Of a DNA stretch of 45,864 bases, positions 22,092 to 31,411 are shown in pieces (the first letter of the stretch is position 1; each line of letters starts with the position of its first letter). The notes below the pieces were generated by a model, which saw only the letters and a program-made list of their open reading frames with translations, did no database searches and was not told the DNA's origin. A program made the translations under genes and the position numbers. Source of the DNA: Comamonadaceae bacterium (lineage in GTDB: Bacteria > Pseudomonadota > Gammaproteobacteria > Burkholderiales > Burkholderiaceae_C); assembly GCA_025352965.1 (NCBI GenBank), contig JANXRP010000103.1, positions 1 to 45,864 of the forward strand. The letters are read 5' to 3'.

Positions 22092-22880
22092 TTAAACAAT
22101 TTTGGAATAAAGATTGGTGATGTTATCCATCACTTGCAAGATGCGTTCGCTGGTTTGAAAAACATCGCTCATGCGTGCTTGGCTGGCATGTCCGACCTGC
22201 AAGTTTTGCAAAGCCGCTTGAAAGAAAACAAACTGCTGCTGGGCGAGCACAAGCTCGCCAGCAATACGTTCGGTATTCTCAGGCGCTTTGGCTAAGGTGT
22301 CGTGTGCGAGCAAAAATTCATCTTGCGCTTTGAGCATTTCTGCTTTGGCGTTTGCTGCTCCCACATTCCAACTGGCCGCCAAATAATGCGACGCTATACG
22401 CTGACTGAGCATGCGCTGGCGACCTGCGATGTTGACCAATTTGCCCACGGGTTTGTTTGACGCTTTTTCTAACTGCACAGTACCTTGGTTGGCAAGTTGC
22501 AGCACGGCATTGCTGATCGACATCACGCTGGCGGCCCCTTTTGCATCTGGCTTTGCACCTACGAGCACGCCTTTGTACTCACTCCATTTGGCCTCTAACT
22601 GCTGATAGGTTGCTTTGATGTCAGGTGTGGGCGCAAACGCCTTCAGTTCGACGAGCTGCCGATCAAACAACGCCATTGAAGTCGCCAAGGCTCTCTCTGC
22701 GTCGGAGGGGAGCACACCTTGTCCAAGCGCCATATAACCCTTCGCCATGCGCTGAGAAAGCATGCGCTGGCGACCTGCCTTGTTAATGGCATCGTTTAGA
22801 TTGACAACCTGCGCTAAGCCAATACCAGAGAGGCCTGCAGCCACGCTGGCTAGTAAAACATGTCTACGTTTCATGCCCAA
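22092..22880 (-). CDS. Exported double PilJ-domain protein, candidate nitrate/nitrite sensor
   Basis: 262 residues. An N-terminal signal (KRRHVLLASVAAGLSGIGLA, perhaps Tat because of the RR) is followed by two copies of the PilJ N-terminal domain. Each opens with a P-box-like motif: AINKAGRQRMLSQR at 31-44 and VNIAGRQRMLSQR at 149-161. In NarX, NarQ and NasR this helix binds nitrate or nitrite through the arginine. Here there is no second transmembrane segment, HAMP, kinase or methyl-accepting domain, so the protein must pass any signal to a partner. It lies three bases after nirB and three before nirD. Function is inferred; the domain call is firm. ATG 22874 is an alternative start. Confidence 0.82.
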   Translation of the reverse strand: MGMKRRHVLLASVAAGLSGIGLAQVVNLNDAINKAGRQRMLSQRMAKGYMALGQGVLPSDAERALATSMALFDRQLVELKAFAPTPDIKATYQQLEAKWSEYKGVLVGAKPDAKGAASVMSISNAVLQLANQGTVQLEKASNKPVGKLVNIAGRQRMLSQRIASHYLAASWNVGAANAKAEMLKAQDEFLLAHDTLAKAPENTERIAGELVLAQQQFVFFQAALQNLQVGHASQARMSDVFQTSERILQVMDNITNLYSKIV

Positions 22881-22883
22881 CTC

Positions 22884-25346
22884 TCATGCCAGCGCGAGCG
22901 GCTCAAACTGCCGAATATCGACAGCCGCCTTGTTGTGCTCAAACCAAGGATCGGGTTCGCCATCTAGCGCAAACTGCAGACGCTCCCACAGCGCTTTGCG
23001 ACCTTCGTGGTCTTCCAAGATTTTCTTTTTCACATAGTCCATACCGACGCGGCCGACGTAATGCACGGTGCGCTCCAAGTACCAGCCTTCCTCGCGGTAG
23101 AGCTGCATAAACGCGCCCGTGTACTCCAGCACTTCTTCGCTGGTTTTAAGCTTGGTAAAGAACTGCGCGACTTCGGTTTTGATGCCACCGTTGCCTGCAA
23201 TGACCATTTCCCAGCCGCTGTCCACACCGATGATGCCTACGTCTTTAATACCGGCTTCGGCGCAATTGCGCGGGCAACCGCTGACGGCAAATTTGACTTT
23301 GTGCGGCGCGTACATACGCCACATGGCGCGCTCTAAATCTTTGCCCATTTGCGTGGAGTCTTGTGTGCCAAAGCGGCACCATTCGCTACCCACGCAGGTT
23401 TTGACTGTGCGTAGCGCCTTGGCATACGCATGACCACTGGGCATCCCGATGTCTTGCCAAACCGCAGGCAGATCTTCTTTTTTCACGCCAAGTAAGTCAA
23501 TACGTTGCCCGCCAGTCACTTTGACGGTGGGGATTTGGTATTTATCTACCACGTCCGCAATGCGGCGTAGCTCGCTGCTCGTCGTCTCGCCCGCCCACAT
23601 TCGCGGAATCACCGAGTAGGTGCCATCCTTTTGGATATTGGCATGTGAGCGCTCGTTGATAAAGCGGCTTTGTGGGTCGTCCTTGGCATCTTTAGGCCAT
23701 GAGCTAATTAGGTAATAGTTGACCGCTGGGCGGCAAGACGCGCAGCCATTGGGTGTGCGCCACTCCATGAATTTGTACACGTCAGGAATGGAGAGCAATT
23801 TGTTTTTGACAATCGCATCGCGCACGGCTTGATGACCATGATCGGTACAGCCGCACATGGCTTTGAGCTTGGGTGTGGCGGAGTAATCGCCGCCAGCCGT
23901 AAACATCAAAATTTGCTCAACCAAGCCTGTGCACGATCCGCAGGACGCGCTGGCTTTGGTGTGTTTGCGCACTTCGTCTAGTGTGAACAAACCTTTTTCT
24001 TTAATCGCTTTGCAAATCGTGCCCTTGTTCACGCCATTGCAACCGCAAACCTCTTGCGAGTCAGGCATAGAAGCGGCCGATGTTGCACCTGCATGTCCCA
24101 CGTCACCAATGTTGGACTCACCAAACATCAGTTTGTCGCGGATGTCGGACACATCGCGCCCATCGCGCAGTAGTTTGAAATACCAAGAGCCATCGACCGT
24201 ATCGCCGTACAAGCACGCGCCAATGAGTTTGTTGTCTTTAATGACTAGTTTTTTGTACACGCCATCGCCTGGGTCGGACATGACAATTTCTTCTGTCTCG
24301 TCGTTGCCTGTGAAGTCGCCCGCGCTAAACAAATCAATGCCCGTCACTTTGAGCTTGGTCGAAGTCATTGAACCCGTGTAACGACCAATGCCCAGTTCCG
24401 CCAAATGGTTGGCTGCTACGCGTGCTTGTTCAAATAACGGTGCAACCAGACCATAGGCAATACCGCGATGCGATGCGCATTCACCGACCGCGTAGATGCG
24501 GGCATCGGTCACGGTTTGCAGTGTGTCGGTCACCACAATGCCCCTATTGCAGTGGATGTTCATGGATTCGGCGAGTTCCGTGTTCGGGCGAATACCCACC
24601 GCCATCACGACTAAATCAGTATCGAGTTCAGTGCCATCTTTGAAGGTGATTTTTGATACGCGCCCAGACTTACCGTTATCGGCATTGCCGATAAGTGCAG
24701 ATGTGTTTGCACCCAGCATGAACTTGAGACCGCGTTTCTCTAGCGAACCGCGCAAGAGTCCAGCCGCCACTTCGTCAAGTTGACGCTCCATAATCCAGGG
24801 CAGCACATGCACCACGGTCACCTCCATGCCGCGCAGCATGAGGCCGTTAGCCGCTTCTAGGCCCAGCAAGCCACCACCAATCACGACGGCTTTTTTGTAT
24901 TTTTTAGCCGCCTCAATCATGGCGTTGGTATCCGCAATATCGCGGTAAGCCAGCACGCCATCTAAATCTTTGCCAGGAATCGGCAGCATGAACGGATTCG
25001 AGCCCGTGCAAAGCAGCAAGCGGTCATACGGCGCTTCAATCACGCCGCCTTGGCCGTCATCCGCAATCACGACGCGGCGCACACGATCCACCTTGGTCAC
25101 TTTTTTGCCCGCATGCAGGGTAATGTTGTTCTCTGTGTACCACTCAAAGGTGTTCAGAATGATTTCGTCCACCGTTTGCTCGCCCGCCAGTACGGGGCTA
25201 AGCAAGATACGGTTGTAGTTGGGATGCGGCTCAGAGCCAAACACCGTAATGTCGTATTTGTTCGCGTCTAACTTGAGGACCTCTTCAACGGTGCGTACCC
25301 CCGCCATACCGTTACCCACTAAAACTAACTTCTGCTTCTTGTTCAT
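22884..25346 (-). CDS. nirB: Nitrite reductase [NAD(P)H] large subunit
   Basis: 820 residues. Reduces nitrite to ammonium by six electrons from NADH (cytoplasm). Order of domains: FAD binding (VLVGNGMAG, 8-16), NAD binding (VVIGGGLLGLEAA, about 154-166), two BFD-like [2Fe-2S] segments (CGCNG...CGSC and CGCTD...CASC, about 430-560), and the siroheme/4Fe-4S half with CVGSEWC near 645 and SGCPRNC near 687. All cluster cysteines are present. I chose ATG 25346 because AAAGGA lies at the right distance; a GTG 18 bases upstream would place the Shine-Dalgarno inside the gene. A sigma-54 promoter stands just upstream, so it can be expressed apart from nrtABD. Confidence 0.96.
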   Translation of the reverse strand: MNKKQKLVLVGNGMAGVRTVEEVLKLDANKYDITVFGSEPHPNYNRILLSPVLAGEQTVDEIILNTFEWYTENNITLHAGKKVTKVDRVRRVVIADDGQGGVIEAPYDRLLLCTGSNPFMLPIPGKDLDGVLAYRDIADTNAMIEAAKKYKKAVVIGGGLLGLEAANGLMLRGMEVTVVHVLPWIMERQLDEVAAGLLRGSLEKRGLKFMLGANTSALIGNADNGKSGRVSKITFKDGTELDTDLVVMAVGIRPNTELAESMNIHCNRGIVVTDTLQTVTDARIYAVGECASHRGIAYGLVAPLFEQARVAANHLAELGIGRYTGSMTSTKLKVTGIDLFSAGDFTGNDETEEIVMSDPGDGVYKKLVIKDNKLIGACLYGDTVDGSWYFKLLRDGRDVSDIRDKLMFGESNIGDVGHAGATSAASMPDSQEVCGCNGVNKGTICKAIKEKGLFTLDEVRKHTKASASCGSCTGLVEQILMFTAGGDYSATPKLKAMCGCTDHGHQAVRDAIVKNKLLSIPDVYKFMEWRTPNGCASCRPAVNYYLISSWPKDAKDDPQSRFINERSHANIQKDGTYSVIPRMWAGETTSSELRRIADVVDKYQIPTVKVTGGQRIDLLGVKKEDLPAVWQDIGMPSGHAYAKALRTVKTCVGSEWCRFGTQDSTQMGKDLERAMWRMYAPHKVKFAVSGCPRNCAEAGIKDVGIIGVDSGWEMVIAGNGGIKTEVAQFFTKLKTSEEVLEYTGAFMQLYREEGWYLERTVHYVGRVGMDYVKKKILEDHEGRKALWERLQFALDGEPDPWFEHNKAAVDIRQFEPLALA

Positions 25347-25373
25347 GCTTATATTCCTTTGCACAAAGAATGA

Positions 25374-25389
25374 AGCAATCTTCGTGCCA
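25374..25389 (-). promoter_or_regulatory. Sigma-54 promoter of nirB
   Basis: On the minus strand the sequence reads TGGCACG-AAGA-TTGCT, a full match to the RpoN consensus TGGCACG-N4-TTGCW. GG (25388-25387) and GC (25376-25375) are 12 bases apart. Expected transcription start near 25363, about 17 bases before the nirB ATG. A GCACCAT element lies directly upstream. Confidence 0.8.
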
Positions 25390-25427
25390 TGTCACATTTA
25401 TGGTGCAAGTTGATGGGGCTATGGCGC

Positions 25428-26270
25428 TTATTTGGCGTACAAAAAGTCGATCACTGATTTGCGCGCTTTTTGGTAATAGGGATCACCCGCCAAATGCACA
25501 CGGTCGCGTGGTCTTGGCAGATTCACTTCCAAAATCTTACCTATGGTCGCGGCTTTGTCCGCTGTGGGCGTGGTCAGCATCACAATGCGGTCAGATAGTA
25601 GGACGGCTTCATCCACGTCGTGGGTGACCATGACTACGGTGCTGCCTGTGGCCTCCACAATGGTCAGCAGCTCGTCTTGTAGCTTGGCGCGGGTCAGTGC
25701 ATCCAGCGCACCAAAAGGCTCATCCATCAAAAGCACTTGTGGCTCCATGGCAAGCGCTCTGGCAATGCCCACGCGTTGCTTCATGCCGCCTGAAATTTCA
25801 TGTGGACGCTTATCCCGTGCGTGCTGCAAGCCCACCATGGCGAGCGCCGCATCGGTGCGTGCCGTGAGGCTAGCTTTGCTCTCGCCGTCCTGCCCCGTCT
25901 CGCGGCGCGACACCAAGTTTGTTGCACCAAAGACGCGCTCAACCCCCAGATAGATGTTGTCAAAGCAAGTGAGCCAAGGTAGCAAGGAGTGATTTTGGAA
26001 CACGACAGCGCGCTCGGGGCCAGGCTTGGTGATTTCGCGGTTGGCGCATAGCAAACCTCCTCTGGCTGGCAGCGTCAGGCCTGCAATCAGGTTCAGCAAG
26101 GTTGATTTGCCACAACCTGAGTGCCCAATGAGACTGACAAACTCGCCTTTGGCGATAGAAAGATTGACGTTTTGCAGCGCCGTGAACGGCCCTTTCGCGG
26201 TTGGGAAAATTTGCCATACATTGTGGATATCCAAAAATTTTTCGTTCTGCAGGTCGTATGACGTTCTCAT
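25428..26270 (-). CDS. nrtD: Nitrate ABC transporter ATPase
   Basis: 280 residues of the nitrate/sulfonate/bicarbonate (NrtD/SsuB/TauB) ATPase class. Walker A GHSGCGKS at 49-56, Q-loop FQNHSLLPW at 91-99, signature ISGGMKQR at 159-166, Walker B VLLMDEP at 179-185. A 20-odd-residue insert (about 114-137, RRETGQDGESK) stands between Q-loop and signature. It lacks the extra NrtA-like domain of cyanobacterial NrtC, as usual in proteobacteria. The start overlaps the nrtB stop as ATGA. The intergenic stretch after it holds the nirB promoter. Confidence 0.92.
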   Translation of the reverse strand: MRTSYDLQNEKFLDIHNVWQIFPTAKGPFTALQNVNLSIAKGEFVSLIGHSGCGKSTLLNLIAGLTLPARGGLLCANREITKPGPERAVVFQNHSLLPWLTCFDNIYLGVERVFGATNLVSRRETGQDGESKASLTARTDAALAMVGLQHARDKRPHEISGGMKQRVGIARALAMEPQVLLMDEPFGALDALTRAKLQDELLTIVEATGSTVVMVTHDVDEAVLLSDRIVMLTTPTADKAATIGKILEVNLPRPRDRVHLAGDPYYQKARKSVIDFLYAK

Positions 26271-27067
26271 GCTGCTGTTTCCTCGTAGGTAAATGCGCTG
26301 GCTAGTTTGATGAGTAAAAATTCGAGCGCCAGTCCCACCACGCCAATCATGAAGATGGCAATGATGATGTTTTTGACGTTCAGGTTATTCCACTCGTCCC
26401 ATAGCCAAAAGCCAATGCCCACGCCGCCTGTCAGCATTTCCGCTGCCACAATGACCAGCCATGCGGTGCCAACGGCGAGGCGAACGCCTGTCAGCATGTA
26501 AGGCAAGGTGGAGGGCAGCAAAATGGTTTTAAAAATCTTCCATTCCGATAAATCCAGCACCTTGGCGACGTTTAAATAATCGCTGGGGATGCGCTGCACG
26601 CCAATGGCGGTGTTAATCACCATGGGCCAAATGGAACAAATAAAGATGGTCCAAATAGCGGCAGGATTTGCACCTTTAAAGACGAGTAATCCAATCGGCA
26701 GCCACGCCAGTGGTGATACAGGGCGCAAGAGCCCAATAATGGGATTGAGCATCCGATTGATAAAGGTGCTGCGCCCAATCGCAAATCCAAGCGGTATGCC
26801 GACCAGTGCCGCGAGGCCAAAGCCCAGCGCCACACGGCGAAGGGATGAGAGCACATTCCAGCCAATGCCTTGGTCGTTAATGGACTTGCGATAAAACGGA
26901 TCGCTAAACACCGTGATGGCTTGCTCTAGTGTGGCATGGGGCGTGGGGAATGTGCCCCCGCTTTGGCTGGCAATGATCTGCCAGATCAACACCAGCATGG
27001 CAAAGCCGAGTAGGGGCGGGAGAGCCGCTTGCGCTAGCGCCCTTGTTTTAAGTTGGATCGGGGTCAT
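26267..27067 (-). CDS. nrtB: Nitrate ABC transporter permease
   Basis: 266-residue inner-membrane subunit with about six helices and the SsuC/NrtB-type EAA loop near VAKVLDLSEWKIFKTILLP (about 165-183). The GVGIGFWLWDEWN segment near 210-222 is typical of NrtB. The open frame reaches back to 27316, inside nrtA; ATG 27067 is the natural start, 23 bases after the nrtA stop. The end overlaps nrtD by ATGA. It pairs with NrtA (binding protein) and NrtD (ATPase) to import nitrate and perhaps nitrite. Confidence 0.93.
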   Translation of the reverse strand: MTPIQLKTRALAQAALPPLLGFAMLVLIWQIIASQSGGTFPTPHATLEQAITVFSDPFYRKSINDQGIGWNVLSSLRRVALGFGLAALVGIPLGFAIGRSTFINRMLNPIIGLLRPVSPLAWLPIGLLVFKGANPAAIWTIFICSIWPMVINTAIGVQRIPSDYLNVAKVLDLSEWKIFKTILLPSTLPYMLTGVRLAVGTAWLVIVAAEMLTGGVGIGFWLWDEWNNLNVKNIIIAIFMIGVVGLALEFLLIKLASAFTYEETAA

Positions 27068-27090
27068 GCTTGGCACCTGTTTGCTTGGGA

Positions 27091-28347
27091 CTACGCTTTG
27101 ATCTTGAATCCATCCGCATACTTGCGGGGGTCTTTGCCATCCCACACCACGCCGTCCAGTAGTTTGGAGGTGCGCAGCACGTCTTTTGGCAGACTGACCT
27201 TTGCGGCAGTTGCGGCTGATTTGTAGAGATCGACTTGATTGATTTGCTTGGCCACGTTCAAATAGTCGGGGTGCTCCTTGACCAAGCCCCAGCGCTTGTG
27301 TTGCGTGAGGAACCACATGCCGTCGGACAGATACGGGAAGTTCACCGCGCCATCGTTGTAAAACTTCATGTGATTGGCGTCATCCCAGGTCTTGCCCAGA
27401 CCGTTTTGGTAACGCCCCAAAATGCGTTGGTTAATCACGTCTACGCTGGTGTTCACGTAGGACTTATCGGCAATGGTTTCGGCCATTTTGTTTTTGTTGA
27501 CAAGGCTGGCGTCAATCCATTTGCCAGCTTCTAAAACGGCAGCAATCGCGGCGCGGCACGTGTTAGGGTACTTCTTGGCGAAGTCGCCTTGGGTTGCCAA
27601 CACTTTTTCGGGGTGATCCTTCCAAATATCTTGCGTGGTGATGGCGGTAATGCCAATACCGTCCGCAATCGCGCGGTGATTCCATGGCTCGCCCACACAG
27701 TAGCCGTCCATATTGCCCACACGCATATTGGCGACCATTTGCGGTGGTGGCACGGTGATGTTCTTCACGTCGCGGATGGGGTCAATGCCGTTAGAGGCTA
27801 ACCAGTAATTGAGCCACATGGCGTGCGTGCCTGTGGGGAAGGTTTGCGCAAACGTATAGTCACGCTTATCCGTCTTGAGCAACTTGGCGAGTGATGCGCC
27901 ATCAATGGCTCCGCTTGAAGCCAACTTTTTAGATAGCGTGATGGCTTGCCCATTGTGGTTCAAAGTCATCAAAACGGCCATATCTTTTTTGGTGCTCCCC
28001 ACGCCCAAATGCGTGCCGTAAACGAGGCCGTATAAGGCGTGTGCCATATCGAGCTCACCTGAAATGAGCTTGTCACGTACACCCGCCCACGAGGCTTGCT
28101 TGTCAAGCACAAACTTCACGCCATGCTTCACGTCTAAACCCAAAACCGAAGCCATCACGATGCTGGCGCAGTCGGTGAGTGGAATAAAGCCGATACGAAT
28201 CTCTTTCTTCTCTGGCGCGTCCGAGCCTTGCGCATAAGCAAAGCCACTCAGCAAGGGCGATGCTTGCAGTGCCACGCCCGCTATGGCCTGCGAGCCTTTG
28301 GCTAATAGTGATCTGCGTGAAAGTGTGATGTTACTAGAGAGATTCAT
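27091..28347 (-). CDS. nrtA: Nitrate-binding protein (Tat-exported)
   Basis: 418 residues. The N-terminus carries a Tat signal, SRRSLLAKG (residues 10-18), with a cleavage site after AYA at 39; the mature part is a NrtA/NasF-type periplasmic binding protein (EKKEIRIGFIPLTDCASIVMA). MHFYNDGAVN-like C-terminal parts and the VCVGEPW-like segment (YCVGEPWN) fit NrtA/CmpA. It starts a seven-to-nine-gene minus-strand string. AAGGAA precedes the ATG. A consensus sigma-54 promoter lies 45-60 bases upstream. Confidence 0.94.
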   Translation of the reverse strand: MNLSSNITLSRRSLLAKGSQAIAGVALQASPLLSGFAYAQGSDAPEKKEIRIGFIPLTDCASIVMASVLGLDVKHGVKFVLDKQASWAGVRDKLISGELDMAHALYGLVYGTHLGVGSTKKDMAVLMTLNHNGQAITLSKKLASSGAIDGASLAKLLKTDKRDYTFAQTFPTGTHAMWLNYWLASNGIDPIRDVKNITVPPPQMVANMRVGNMDGYCVGEPWNHRAIADGIGITAITTQDIWKDHPEKVLATQGDFAKKYPNTCRAAIAAVLEAGKWIDASLVNKNKMAETIADKSYVNTSVDVINQRILGRYQNGLGKTWDDANHMKFYNDGAVNFPYLSDGMWFLTQHKRWGLVKEHPDYLNVAKQINQVDLYKSAATAAKVSLPKDVLRTSKLLDGVVWDGKDPRKYADGFKIKA

Positions 28348-28391
28348 GTCGTTTCCTTAAAACGGGTGATAGGGGCTAACCCTTATTCCTT

Positions 28392-28408
28392 AGCAACCAC
28401 CGTGCCAG
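28392..28408 (-). promoter_or_regulatory. Sigma-54 promoter of nrtA
   Basis: On the minus strand: CTGGCACG-GTGG-TTGCT, an exact consensus RpoN promoter. GG at 28406-28405 and GC at 28394-28393 are 12 bases apart; the start site should be near 28381, about 34 bases before the nrtA ATG. Its -24 box is one arm of a perfect inverted repeat shared with the narK promoter. Confidence 0.85.
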
Positions 28409-28416
28409 TTTTTTTG

Positions 28417-28433
28417 CTGGCACGAAATTCGCT
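28417..28433 (+). promoter_or_regulatory. Sigma-54 promoter of narK
   Basis: On the plus strand: CTGGCACG-AAAT-TCGCT, one mismatch from the RpoN consensus in the -12 element (TC for TT). GG 28419-28420 and GC 28431-28432 are 12 bases apart. The start site should be near 28444, about 29 bases before the narK ATG. The -24 box faces the nrtA -24 box across only eight bases (T7G). Confidence 0.75.
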
Positions 28434-28472
28434 TGAGTGAAGGCATTCGTTACTTCAACAAAGGGATTAGCC

Positions 28473-29684
28473 ATGTCGGGATTCAAGGGATTTTTAAAAA
28501 GCGGCCACGCGCCCACGCTGTTTGCGGCGTTCTTTTATTTCACCTATTCATTTTTTATTTGGGTCTTAAATGGTGCGATGGCACCGTTTATTTCTGAGGA
28601 GTTTCATCTCACCCCACAGCAAAAAGGTTTGATGCTGTCGATTCCTATTTTTGCGGGCGCTTTGATGCGTTTCCCGCTGGGGCTGATGTCGCAATACGTG
28701 GGGCGCAAAAACGCAACTTTGATTGAAATGGCGCTCATTGCTGCCGCGATGTCGTTCGGTTATTTTTTCGTTAAAAGCTTTAATGACTTGCTCGCCATGG
28801 GCGTGCTCTTAGGCGTTGCGGGCGCAAGCTTTGGCGTCGCGATGTCACTAGGGTCGGGCTCTTTCCCGCCTAAGCACAAAGGTCTTGCCATGGGCATTGT
28901 GGGTGCGGGTAATGTGGGCACGGCGATTTGTGTGCTGGTCGCGCCGCCGCTAGCGCAGGCCTACGGTTGGACGACGGTGTACGGCTTTGCGGCTATCTCT
29001 GTGATCGTGCCTTTTTTGGTGGTGAGCTTGATGGCAAAAGAGCCCGATGATTTAGACAAACACGCGACCTTTCGCCAGCACATTGCTTGTTTGTTTGAAA
29101 AAGACGGCTGGGCTTTCAGCTTGATCTATGTTGTTACGTTTGGTGGGTTCATTGGCCTAGCGTCCTTTTTGCCAACCTATTACTACGACCAATTCGGTGT
29201 GAGCAAGGTGCAGGCAGGGCAGCTGACCATGCTGGCAGCCTTTATGGGTGCGGCACTGCGCGTGTTTGGCGGCTGGATTTCAGATCGCTTTGGCGGCATC
29301 AATACATTGACCGCTGTTTTGGTCATTGTGGCGATCACGCTGGTGATGTGCAGTTTTGCCACAGGCTCATTGCCTGCGACGACGCTTTTAGTCATGCTTT
29401 GTTTTGCAGCACTGGGCGCTGGAAACGGTGCGCTGTTTCAGCTGGTGCCACTACGCTGGTCAACCACCACGGCGGTGGCGGGCTCGATGATTGGCGAAAT
29501 TGGTGCGCTCGGCGGTAGTTTGGTGCCAACCTCGATGGGTTTCTCTAAGCAACATTTTGGCACTTATGCGGGCGGTTTTATGCTGTTTGCTGTGTTGGCC
29601 GTGGTGATGCTTTTCATGCTACGCGTGATGCAACTGCGCTGGACTCGCACCTGGGCAGAAAAAGGCGGCAGAGCGCGGGGTTAA
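28473..29684 (+). CDS. narK: Nitrate/nitrite MFS transporter (NarK/NasA family)
   Basis: 403 residues, 12 helices, of the nitrate-nitrite porter family. Two nitrate signatures can be seen: GIVGAGNVGTAICV (about 145-158) and LGAGNGALFQLVP (about 322-334). The arginine in TM2 (ALMRFPLG) is the usual substrate ligand. Start at ATG 28473 with AAGGGA as Shine-Dalgarno; the frame upstream to 28437 lies beyond the predicted transcription start. It diverges from nrtA, so the strain has both an ABC and an MFS nitrate carrier from one control region. Its stop overlaps the stop of the convergent kinase gene (TTAA). Confidence 0.94.
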   Translation: MSGFKGFLKSGHAPTLFAAFFYFTYSFFIWVLNGAMAPFISEEFHLTPQQKGLMLSIPIFAGALMRFPLGLMSQYVGRKNATLIEMALIAAAMSFGYFFVKSFNDLLAMGVLLGVAGASFGVAMSLGSGSFPPKHKGLAMGIVGAGNVGTAICVLVAPPLAQAYGWTTVYGFAAISVIVPFLVVSLMAKEPDDLDKHATFRQHIACLFEKDGWAFSLIYVVTFGGFIGLASFLPTYYYDQFGVSKVQAGQLTMLAAFMGAALRVFGGWISDRFGGINTLTAVLVIVAITLVMCSFATGSLPATTLLVMLCFAALGAGNGALFQLVPLRWSTTTAVAGSMIGEIGALGGSLVPTSMGFSKQHFGTYAGGFMLFAVLAVVMLFMLRVMQLRWTRTWAEKGGRARG

Positions 29685-31411
29685 GTCGGTAAAAACAACA
29701 ACCAATAGATCAGCATCAGGTTAAATAAAAGCGAGATGCCCAGCCCCAGCTTCCATGCGGCGGTTGGGTCTCGGGCCAATAAAGAGGTGGCTTGCGGGGC
29801 GGTTAATGGCCTGGAGGCGCCTCGCTCTAAGGCAAGTAAAAACTCTTCGGCTGTTTCAAAACGTTGACGTTTGTCCCTGGCGACCGCTTTTAACACCACG
29901 TGCTCTAACCACATTGGAATGCTGGGGTTGTGGCGACTCGGTTTGGTGGCATCGCGGTGGTAGCGTGCCGCTTGGTAGGGCAGCACTTCGCCGTAAGGCA
30001 GCTTATTCGTCAGCATTTGATACAGCGTGACACCCAGCGCAAATAAATCACTCTGCGCATCGGGTAGCTCGGGGGTGTCCGACCATTGTTCGGGGTTGAT
30101 GTAACTAGGCGTGCCCGCATGCAGTTTGCGCATGGAGGCGGGCTCTTTGCCGCTGAGCGCGACGCCTAGATCAAGCACGCGCAGCACGCCGTCGTCGCCC
30201 AAGTGCAAATTCGCGGGCTTGATGTCGCGATGGATCACACCTTGGCGATGCAGTAGTCCAAGCGCTTTGAGTGTTTGCATGGCGGCTTGGATGGCTTGGT
30301 CAATCTCTAGCTGATGCCGTTTATCTAGCATTTGTTGCAAGGTCTCGCCGCCATGCCAGTCGTAGAGCAAATAAAAGCTGGTGCGCTCGGTATGCCCTTC
30401 AATTTTGGCGTGAATACGCACTAAATGTGCGGCTTGCCGCGTGTTCTTTGCCAGCCAACCTTCATGAGCCAACATCGCGCGTTCGTCCTTGTCATGGGCG
30501 CGAGCGGGATGCAGGGTTTTGAGTGCGTAAAGTTTGCCCCCATCGTCGTTATCGTCGCTCTTTTGGCTTCGCACTTGATACAAAACATTGATGCCGTTAT
30601 CGGCCACGGGCGCGGTGACGGTGAGGCCGTCGATGGTGTTCCCCACTTTAAGTAGCGGCGGAATGGGTAGATGGCTGTTCGCGTGGCTGTCGTCTTCTAG
30701 TGTGGCATCTAGTAAGCCTAGTACGCGCACGATTAAGGCCGTCACATTGTCCTGGCTGCCTGCTTGCAAAGCCTTATCCACAATGGCCTGCGAGGCTACT
30801 TGGCTATCCCATGGTTCGGTTAAAAGCTCCATCAGTTGGCGCTTGGTCAAGCTGCCATGCACACCGTCGGTGAGTAGTAAAAATGCATCACCCACTTGCA
30901 AATCGCCTTGCATGTAGTCCACCACAATGCGGTCTTCTGCCCCCACGGCGCGCAGCAGTTGATGCTGCATGTCAGGGTGATTGACGATGTGGTCGTGAGT
31001 CAGTTGCCGTAGTTCGCCGCCGCGCAGCAAATACGCGCGCGAATCGCCCACATGTGCCAGTGTGTAAGTGTGGCCGCGCAATACCAAGGCGGTGAGTGTG
31101 GTCAGCCCCAGCAGCGGCTGGCGGCGCTGGTTGACGCCGGCAAGCCAGGTGTTTTGCGCCCCAATGATGCGGTCTAGTGCGACGGTAGCATCCCATTTTT
31201 TGGACGTGCCGAAGTAGTCGCGTAGCACACTCACGACAGTCGTTTGTGCCGCCTCCTTACCCATTCCGCCAGTGCTCACGCCATCTGCCACGGCAGCAAT
31301 CGCTCCCATTTCTTCTTGGCCGCGATCAGGCAGCATCGCGCCGCAAAAATCTTCGTTGATGACCTTTGTGCCAGCTAGCGTTGCGTAACCCGTATCAATT
31401 TGAAATGCCAT
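29681..31411 (-). CDS. PP2C phosphatase / Ser-Thr protein kinase fusion, membrane-tailed
   Basis: 576 residues. Residues about 1-235 form a PP2C phosphatase with its metal aspartates in NEDFCGA (D21), VADGVS (D43), LLLTDGVHG and SQDNVTA. Residues about 250-535 form a protein kinase: YALKTLHP (the ATP-anchoring Lys), HRDIKPAN catalytic loop (about 390), DLGVAL instead of DFG (about 413), and a PEQW-type APE motif. No glycine-rich loop can be made out at the kinase start. A hydrophobic helix (LGISLLFNLMLIYWLLFL) near the C-terminus should anchor it in the membrane with both enzymes in the cytoplasm. AAGGA precedes the ATG. The gene converges on narK and may have a sigma-54 promoter, so it probably tunes nitrate uptake or assimilation; target unknown. 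Confidence 0.9.
   Translation of the reverse strand: MAFQIDTGYATLAGTKVINEDFCGAMLPDRGQEEMGAIAAVADGVSTGGMGKEAAQTTVVSVLRDYFGTSKKWDATVALDRIIGAQNTWLAGVNQRRQPLLGLTTLTALVLRGHTYTLAHVGDSRAYLLRGGELRQLTHDHIVNHPDMQHQLLRAVGAEDRIVVDYMQGDLQVGDAFLLLTDGVHGSLTKRQLMELLTEPWDSQVASQAIVDKALQAGSQDNVTALIVRVLGLLDATLEDDSHANSHLPIPPLLKVGNTIDGLTVTAPVADNGINVLYQVRSQKSDDNDDGGKLYALKTLHPARAHDKDERAMLAHEGWLAKNTRQAAHLVRIHAKIEGHTERTSFYLLYDWHGGETLQQMLDKRHQLEIDQAIQAAMQTLKALGLLHRQGVIHRDIKPANLHLGDDGVLRVLDLGVALSGKEPASMRKLHAGTPSYINPEQWSDTPELPDAQSDLFALGVTLYQMLTNKLPYGEVLPYQAARYHRDATKPSRHNPSIPMWLEHVVLKAVARDKRQRFETAEEFLLALERGASRPLTAPQATSLLARDPTAAWKLGLGISLLFNLMLIYWLLFLPT

Follow-up and report, generated by a model that had tools for sequence, protein, structure and literature searches.

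In Pseudomonas, as described in the cited excerpts, a NasT leader switch follows a sigma-54/NtrC promoter (PMC12830290), and P. putida requires NasT to use nitrate (PMC7261876). The targets of ANTAR proteins are recognizable by hexaloops in which position 1 is A and position 4 is G, and by a second hairpin that overlaps a terminator (PMC3369931). Divergent sigma-54 promoters as such are already known: those of Desulfovibrio orp1 and orp2 share one activator and are expressed simultaneously, according to the excerpt cited (PMC3897727), and the E. coli hyc and hyp operons are divergent, sigma-54 dependent and under one activator, to judge from a title among cited references. Among the titles and abstract openings listed in searches of the open-licence literature, none described a promoter pair of the kind reported here or a nasT-less nrtA/narK arrangement.

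The window, that is, the whole stretch of 45,864 nucleotides analyzed, carries a nitrate assimilation locus with two putative sigma-54 promoters back to back between nrtA and narK. The corresponding loci of two sister species are called L007 (genome G003) and L008 (genome G004). The features are given below.

22884..25364, minus strand: nirB, nitrite reductase large subunit, ATG probably at 25346 (TIGR02374, 912 bits over cut-off)
25374..25389, minus strand: third -24/-12 sequence, before nirB at the nrtD-nirB junction, TGGCACGAAGATTGCT, perfect
25428..26270, minus strand: nrtD, ATPase (conserved order)
26267..27316, minus strand: frame of the nrtB permease, the true start lying inside this open reading frame (conserved order)
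27091..28347, minus strand: nrtA, nitrate-type ABC substrate-binding protein (PF13379; 90-92% identical in L007 and L008)
28348..28381, minus strand: predicted nrtA leader, 34 nt, without room for the ANTAR module seen in relatives
28392..28408, minus strand: nrtA -24/-12 box (predicted sigma-54 promoter), CTGGCACG-GTGG-TTGCT, exact consensus
28417..28433, plus strand: narK -24/-12 box (predicted sigma-54 promoter), CTGGCACG-AAAT-TCGCT, one consensus mismatch
28444..28472, plus strand: predicted narK leader, 29 nt, from the predicted start at 28444
28473..29684, plus strand: narK, NarK-kind MFS carrier (PF07690; TIGR00886, 243 bits, below the cut-off of 312)
29681..31411, minus strand: PP2C phosphatase-protein kinase fusion gene, convergent to narK and traveling with it

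The phosphatase-kinase may act on nitrate assimilation. Between nirB and nirD, 22092-22880 on the minus strand encodes a protein in which two stretches are of the PilJ type and resemble nitrate sensors; it has weak likeness to the sensor part of NarQ and no ANTAR or kinase domain.

The two -24/-12 sequences between nrtA and narK occupy the 42 bp from 28392 to 28433 (TAGCAACCACCGTGCCAGTTTTTTTGCTGGCACGAAATTCGCTTG), and the boxes, positions and strands given in a preliminary description of this DNA were confirmed in the letters of the window. Both have GG at -24, GC at -12 and the standard N4 between TGGCACG and TTGCW. The pattern CTGGCACG-N4-TYGCT was found in exactly two copies in the 2.29-Mb genome, both in this interval; read backwards as a control, it gave one forward and no reverse matches. 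If the C of GC is counted as -12, transcription is predicted to start at 28381 for nrtA, followed by AAGGAAA and the ATG at 28347, and at 28444 for narK, followed by AAAGGGA and the ATG at 28473, so that a purine-rich ribosome site and a start codon come after each. The narK TCGC, nominally a mismatch, was dropped as a sign of weakness because E. coli glnAp2 (TTGGCACAGATTTCGCT, read from the K-12 record) has the identical -12.

Within the genus, narK was found in three of five draft genomes, the window's (97% complete), G003 and G004; G002 is 78% complete, and L005 and L006, duplicates of L007 and L008, were left out. Both -24/-12 pairs were kept in all three species with the genes, as was the spacing from box to start codon on both sides. 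Identity between the window and L008 was 15/17 in the nrtA box, 12/17 in the narK box and 38/91 in the remaining interval. The preliminary description had read the interval as back-to-back RpoN promoters for nrtA and narK and had proposed comparing it among relatives; the conservation in three of three species, together with the occurrence of each box singly in relatives, bears this reading out.

For the nrtA comparison 150 genomes were searched, 99 gave a match, and the best 30 loci were used, 29 of them from outside the genus and from 28 genera. A forward -24/-12 match with at most two mismatches and within 400 bp upstream of nrtA was present in 29/29 of these relatives (best of 99), and with at most one mismatch in 24/29, compared to 1/29 in the reverse-strand control; in the relatives, 160-364 bp separate this upstream box from the matched start of nrtA. 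The narK set comprised 84 copies in 80 loci, the best 80 of 229 candidates, with the two sister species included. In this set a match was located 45-90 bp before the start in 46 copies, with TCGC as the -12 in 37 of these, and elsewhere in 20, and 18 copies had no match within 300 bp; the reverse-strand control over 300 bp gave 5/84, including L007 and L008, where it met the nrtA box. These distributions suggest that the nrtA and narK boxes are old, real sigma-54 promoters. In the Variovorax-type narK loci L023, L025, L032, L033, L043, L045 and L055, a -24/-12-like match was seen about 190-217 bp before the start, and their long narK leader showed no ANTAR P2 hairpin by pattern.

The -24/-12 site before nirB was kept in G003 and G004, and 21/35 relatives had a match no more than 300 bp from nirB; in the same set, 5/35 had an ANTAR-type hairpin before nirB. 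Since a perfect box inside an apparent operon is kept in three species, nirB-nirD-nasA probably also has a sigma-54 promoter of its own. A half-degenerate NtrC-like sequence at 25392-25406, with a similar counterpart in G003 and a weaker one in G004, abuts the nirB -24 box and was rejected, since a usual enhancer would not lie so near.

The gene order differs between the relatives, with tsaD-nasT-nrtA, and the genus, with tsaD...kinase-narK-nrtA. In the genus locus, nirB-nrtD-nrtB-nrtA runs leftward and narK rightward, followed by the convergent kinase gene, further genes and tsaD. Among the ANTAR loci, nrtA was within the 1.5-kb flank in 26 of the 30 fetched, and tsaD too in 14. At 78 non-genus narK loci inspected with 3-kb flanks (within the best 80 of 229), nrtD lay upstream in the same direction in 27, the kinase gene was convergent downstream of narK in 56, with nirB beyond the kinase in 35 of these 56, and divergent nrtA was seen in none. 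By this comparison, the narK-kinase block occupies the place of nasT, which suggests that the two promoters were brought together by a rearrangement that also removed the NasT-type RNA switch.

In the relatives, the nrtA leader module consists of a hairpin of the kind GACC-AAnGnC-GGTC and a second one, GGAC-AAAGGC-GTCC, whose 3' half doubles as the 5' arm of a terminator with GGACGCC-TTTTT at its end. A NasT-type ANTAR protein was found in 29/29 relatives (best of 99) and in 0/5 genus genomes, one of which, G002, is 78% complete. A covariance model of the leader, R1, was built on 17 of 26 leaders, with L093, L096 and L108 outside the 26, and matched 26/29 relatives (best of 99) and 0/5 genus genomes. 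R1 necessarily fits the 17 leaders on which it was built; among the 12 relatives kept out of the model, nine matched, eight of them at nrtA and one, in G148, about 6 kb away, and three had no match. The search of the window with R1 gave nothing. An Rfam scan of 12 loci returned sub-threshold P11 in 4/9 relatives, plus one narK-RNA match, and no match in the three genus loci; P11 and NalA are, we assume, the same RNA. No nasS adjoining nasT was recognized by eye in L182 and L170. As both the ANTAR gene and the leader are missing from the genus genomes, nitrate-specific antitermination seems to have been lost there, which would leave control by nitrogen status. This loss is not visible from the window alone and came from the comparison.

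The genome of the window has rpoN. In each of the five genus genomes there is one strong PF00158 domain (241-244 bits, others at most 28.4), and in the window's genome the protein is NtrC (TIGR01818, 660 bits, cut-off 559), encoded beside glnA and ntrB; glnA itself is preceded by a -24/-12 site and a GCAC-N7-GTGC repeat. With a single strong activator per genome, both promoters should receive the same signal, which suggests that the nrtA and narK promoters would fire together and that co-activation is likelier than switching. In Acidovorax citrulli, an ntrC mutant cannot use nitrate and ntrC is needed for growth on it, according to the excerpt cited (PMC10052978). Perfect TGGCAC-N5-TTGC was matched 22 times in the genome; among the 20 matches examined, those at glnA and in L163 lay in no open reading frame of at least 80 aa. 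The L163 site (981, plus strand; G000:C162:6981) stands 54 bp before the gene for a secreted beta-barrel-like protein of 273 aa, and genes like it presumably stand before glnK-amtB in relatives.

Enhancers are usually located 100-150 bp upstream (PMC7057263, excerpt). Exact GCAC-N7-GTGC was present in the 250 bp preceding the nrtA box in 20/29 relatives (best of 99), compared to 0/29 for the control CACG-N7-CGTG, and was found near the nrtA/narK locus in none of the three genus species. The scored NtrC scan of 27900-28900 had its best two sites at 28804 and 28167 with 8.0, a value that the window reaches 68 times, so the weak scores at the locus are at chance level, and one-mismatch GCAC-N7-GTGC gave 40 matches in the window with 44.7 expected. 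The nearest of these, at 28874-28888 inside narK, was rejected, having no counterpart in L007 or L008. The earlier proposal that activator sites lie inside the coding starts of the opposite genes was thus left with no convincing NtrC-like site in those positions. NtrC may work without such a site, or from one that is degenerate or distant; since the latter is possible, the apparent absence of an enhancer lowers confidence in the sigma-54 promoter class and does not exclude it.

We consider it probable that two independent old sigma-54 promoters, both activated by NtrC, were joined by a move of the narK-kinase block, with loss of the NasT step and with the dyad as a by-product. One promoter would drive the nrtABD-nirBD-nasA unit and the other narK. 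Under nitrogen limitation, NtrC would be phosphorylated and would open the sigma-54 polymerase at nrtA, narK and nirB together. The narK-kinase block would have come between nrtA and tsaD, the position of nasT and the NasT-type leader in relatives, and made the promoters neighbors. With a 34-nt leader and no terminator left to nrtA, loss of the antitermination step is predicted, and the unit would follow nitrogen status alone.

An unlikely variant is that in this genus the two sigma-54 polymerases sit back to back with no enhancer of their own, that both promoters are opened by NtrC in solution or bound at a distance, and that in the species with tight spacing the pair acts as a unit in which cooperative loading or occlusion sets the ratio of ABC system to carrier. 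If true, this would be a module under sigma-54 control that lacks both an enhancer and a nitrate switch. A close sigma-54 pair without a visible enhancer offers a natural case for asking whether activation is possible.

The packing is rare. The strict back-to-back pattern with a spacer of 1-31 was found in 3/399 family genomes, namely the window's, G003 at the same locus, and G342, and in 1/398 genomes across the phylum, the window's own; reversed-pattern controls gave none among the matches listed in both scans. The G342 case (L089) was rejected as a divergent pair since the pattern overlaps the end of a co-directional gene, and G004 is one letter short of the strict pattern. The view that a divergent, overlapping pair of -24 boxes is unusual was in line with these counts. 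From -25 to -25, the distance is 13 bp in the window, 25 bp in L007 and 15 bp in L008, a natural spacing series for how closely two sigma-54 holoenzymes can sit.

The preliminary description had also proposed a toggle, in which polymerase on one promoter blocks the other, and the ABC system and the carrier alternate. If the footprint edge of sigma-54 polymerase is taken at -34, the footprints overlap by 6 bp in the window and 4 bp in L008, as such blocking would require, but in L007 they lie 6 bp apart. Because the spacing varies, exclusion is at most a property of some species, and the single strong activator in each of the five genomes provides no separate signals for the two sides. With the overlap not conserved, alternation is rather improbable.

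Little credence is likewise given to the reading in which one box alone is a working promoter, the other being a relic kept by chance and its gene driven from elsewhere. In its favor, the narK box is the less conserved one in L008 (12/17), and a close site is absent from 38/84 narK copies (best 80 of 229 loci). The L008 narK box (TGGCGCG-ATAG-TTGCT) nevertheless keeps GG, GC and the consensus TTGCT with one consensus mismatch, the spacing to both start codons is maintained, and no sigma-70-like promoter was found in 28200-28700, where shuffles expect 0.5.

The inverted repeat noted earlier, with perfect 8-bp arms around 8 bases, is present in the window, but its spacing and full sequence were not kept in the sister species, and it is a by-product of two outward-facing -24 boxes, which always form one. 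That this perfect dyad is instead a single operator bound by a dimeric regulator, or forms a hairpin, with a coincidental -24/-12 likeness, is very improbable, as L007 has 12 additional bases between the arms and L008 an altered arm, the -12 boxes outside the dyad keep their distance, each box has counterparts in relatives with no partner box beside it, and the dyad, being upstream of both predicted starts, would not be part of transcripts beginning there.

The preferred reading, two old NtrC-activated promoters brought together by rearrangement, amounts to a natural regulatory rewiring in a small-genome lineage, in which two-input control, by NtrC for nitrogen limitation and NasT for nitrate, apparently became one-input control, and in which the apparent change in nitrate assimilation is linked to one change of gene order.

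Among known systems, E. coli glnAp2 shares the TGGCAC core and the TCGCT -12 with the narK promoter. glnAp2 has upstream NtrC enhancers, and its sequence shows GCAC/GTGC-type repeats, whereas no enhancer was recognized at the nrtA/narK locus. The Pseudomonas nirBD leader (NalA) has a sigma-54/NtrC promoter before nitrate assimilation genes (PMC12830290, excerpt), as is predicted for the window locus; unlike the NalA system, the genus of the window has neither the ANTAR gene nor the leader, and narK is divergent. In the orp system the sites for the activator and IHF lie between the promoters (PMC3897727, excerpt), whereas the -24 boxes of the window, 13 bp apart, have room for neither. The pair resembles orp1/orp2 in its two predicted divergent sigma-54 promoters and one putative activator.
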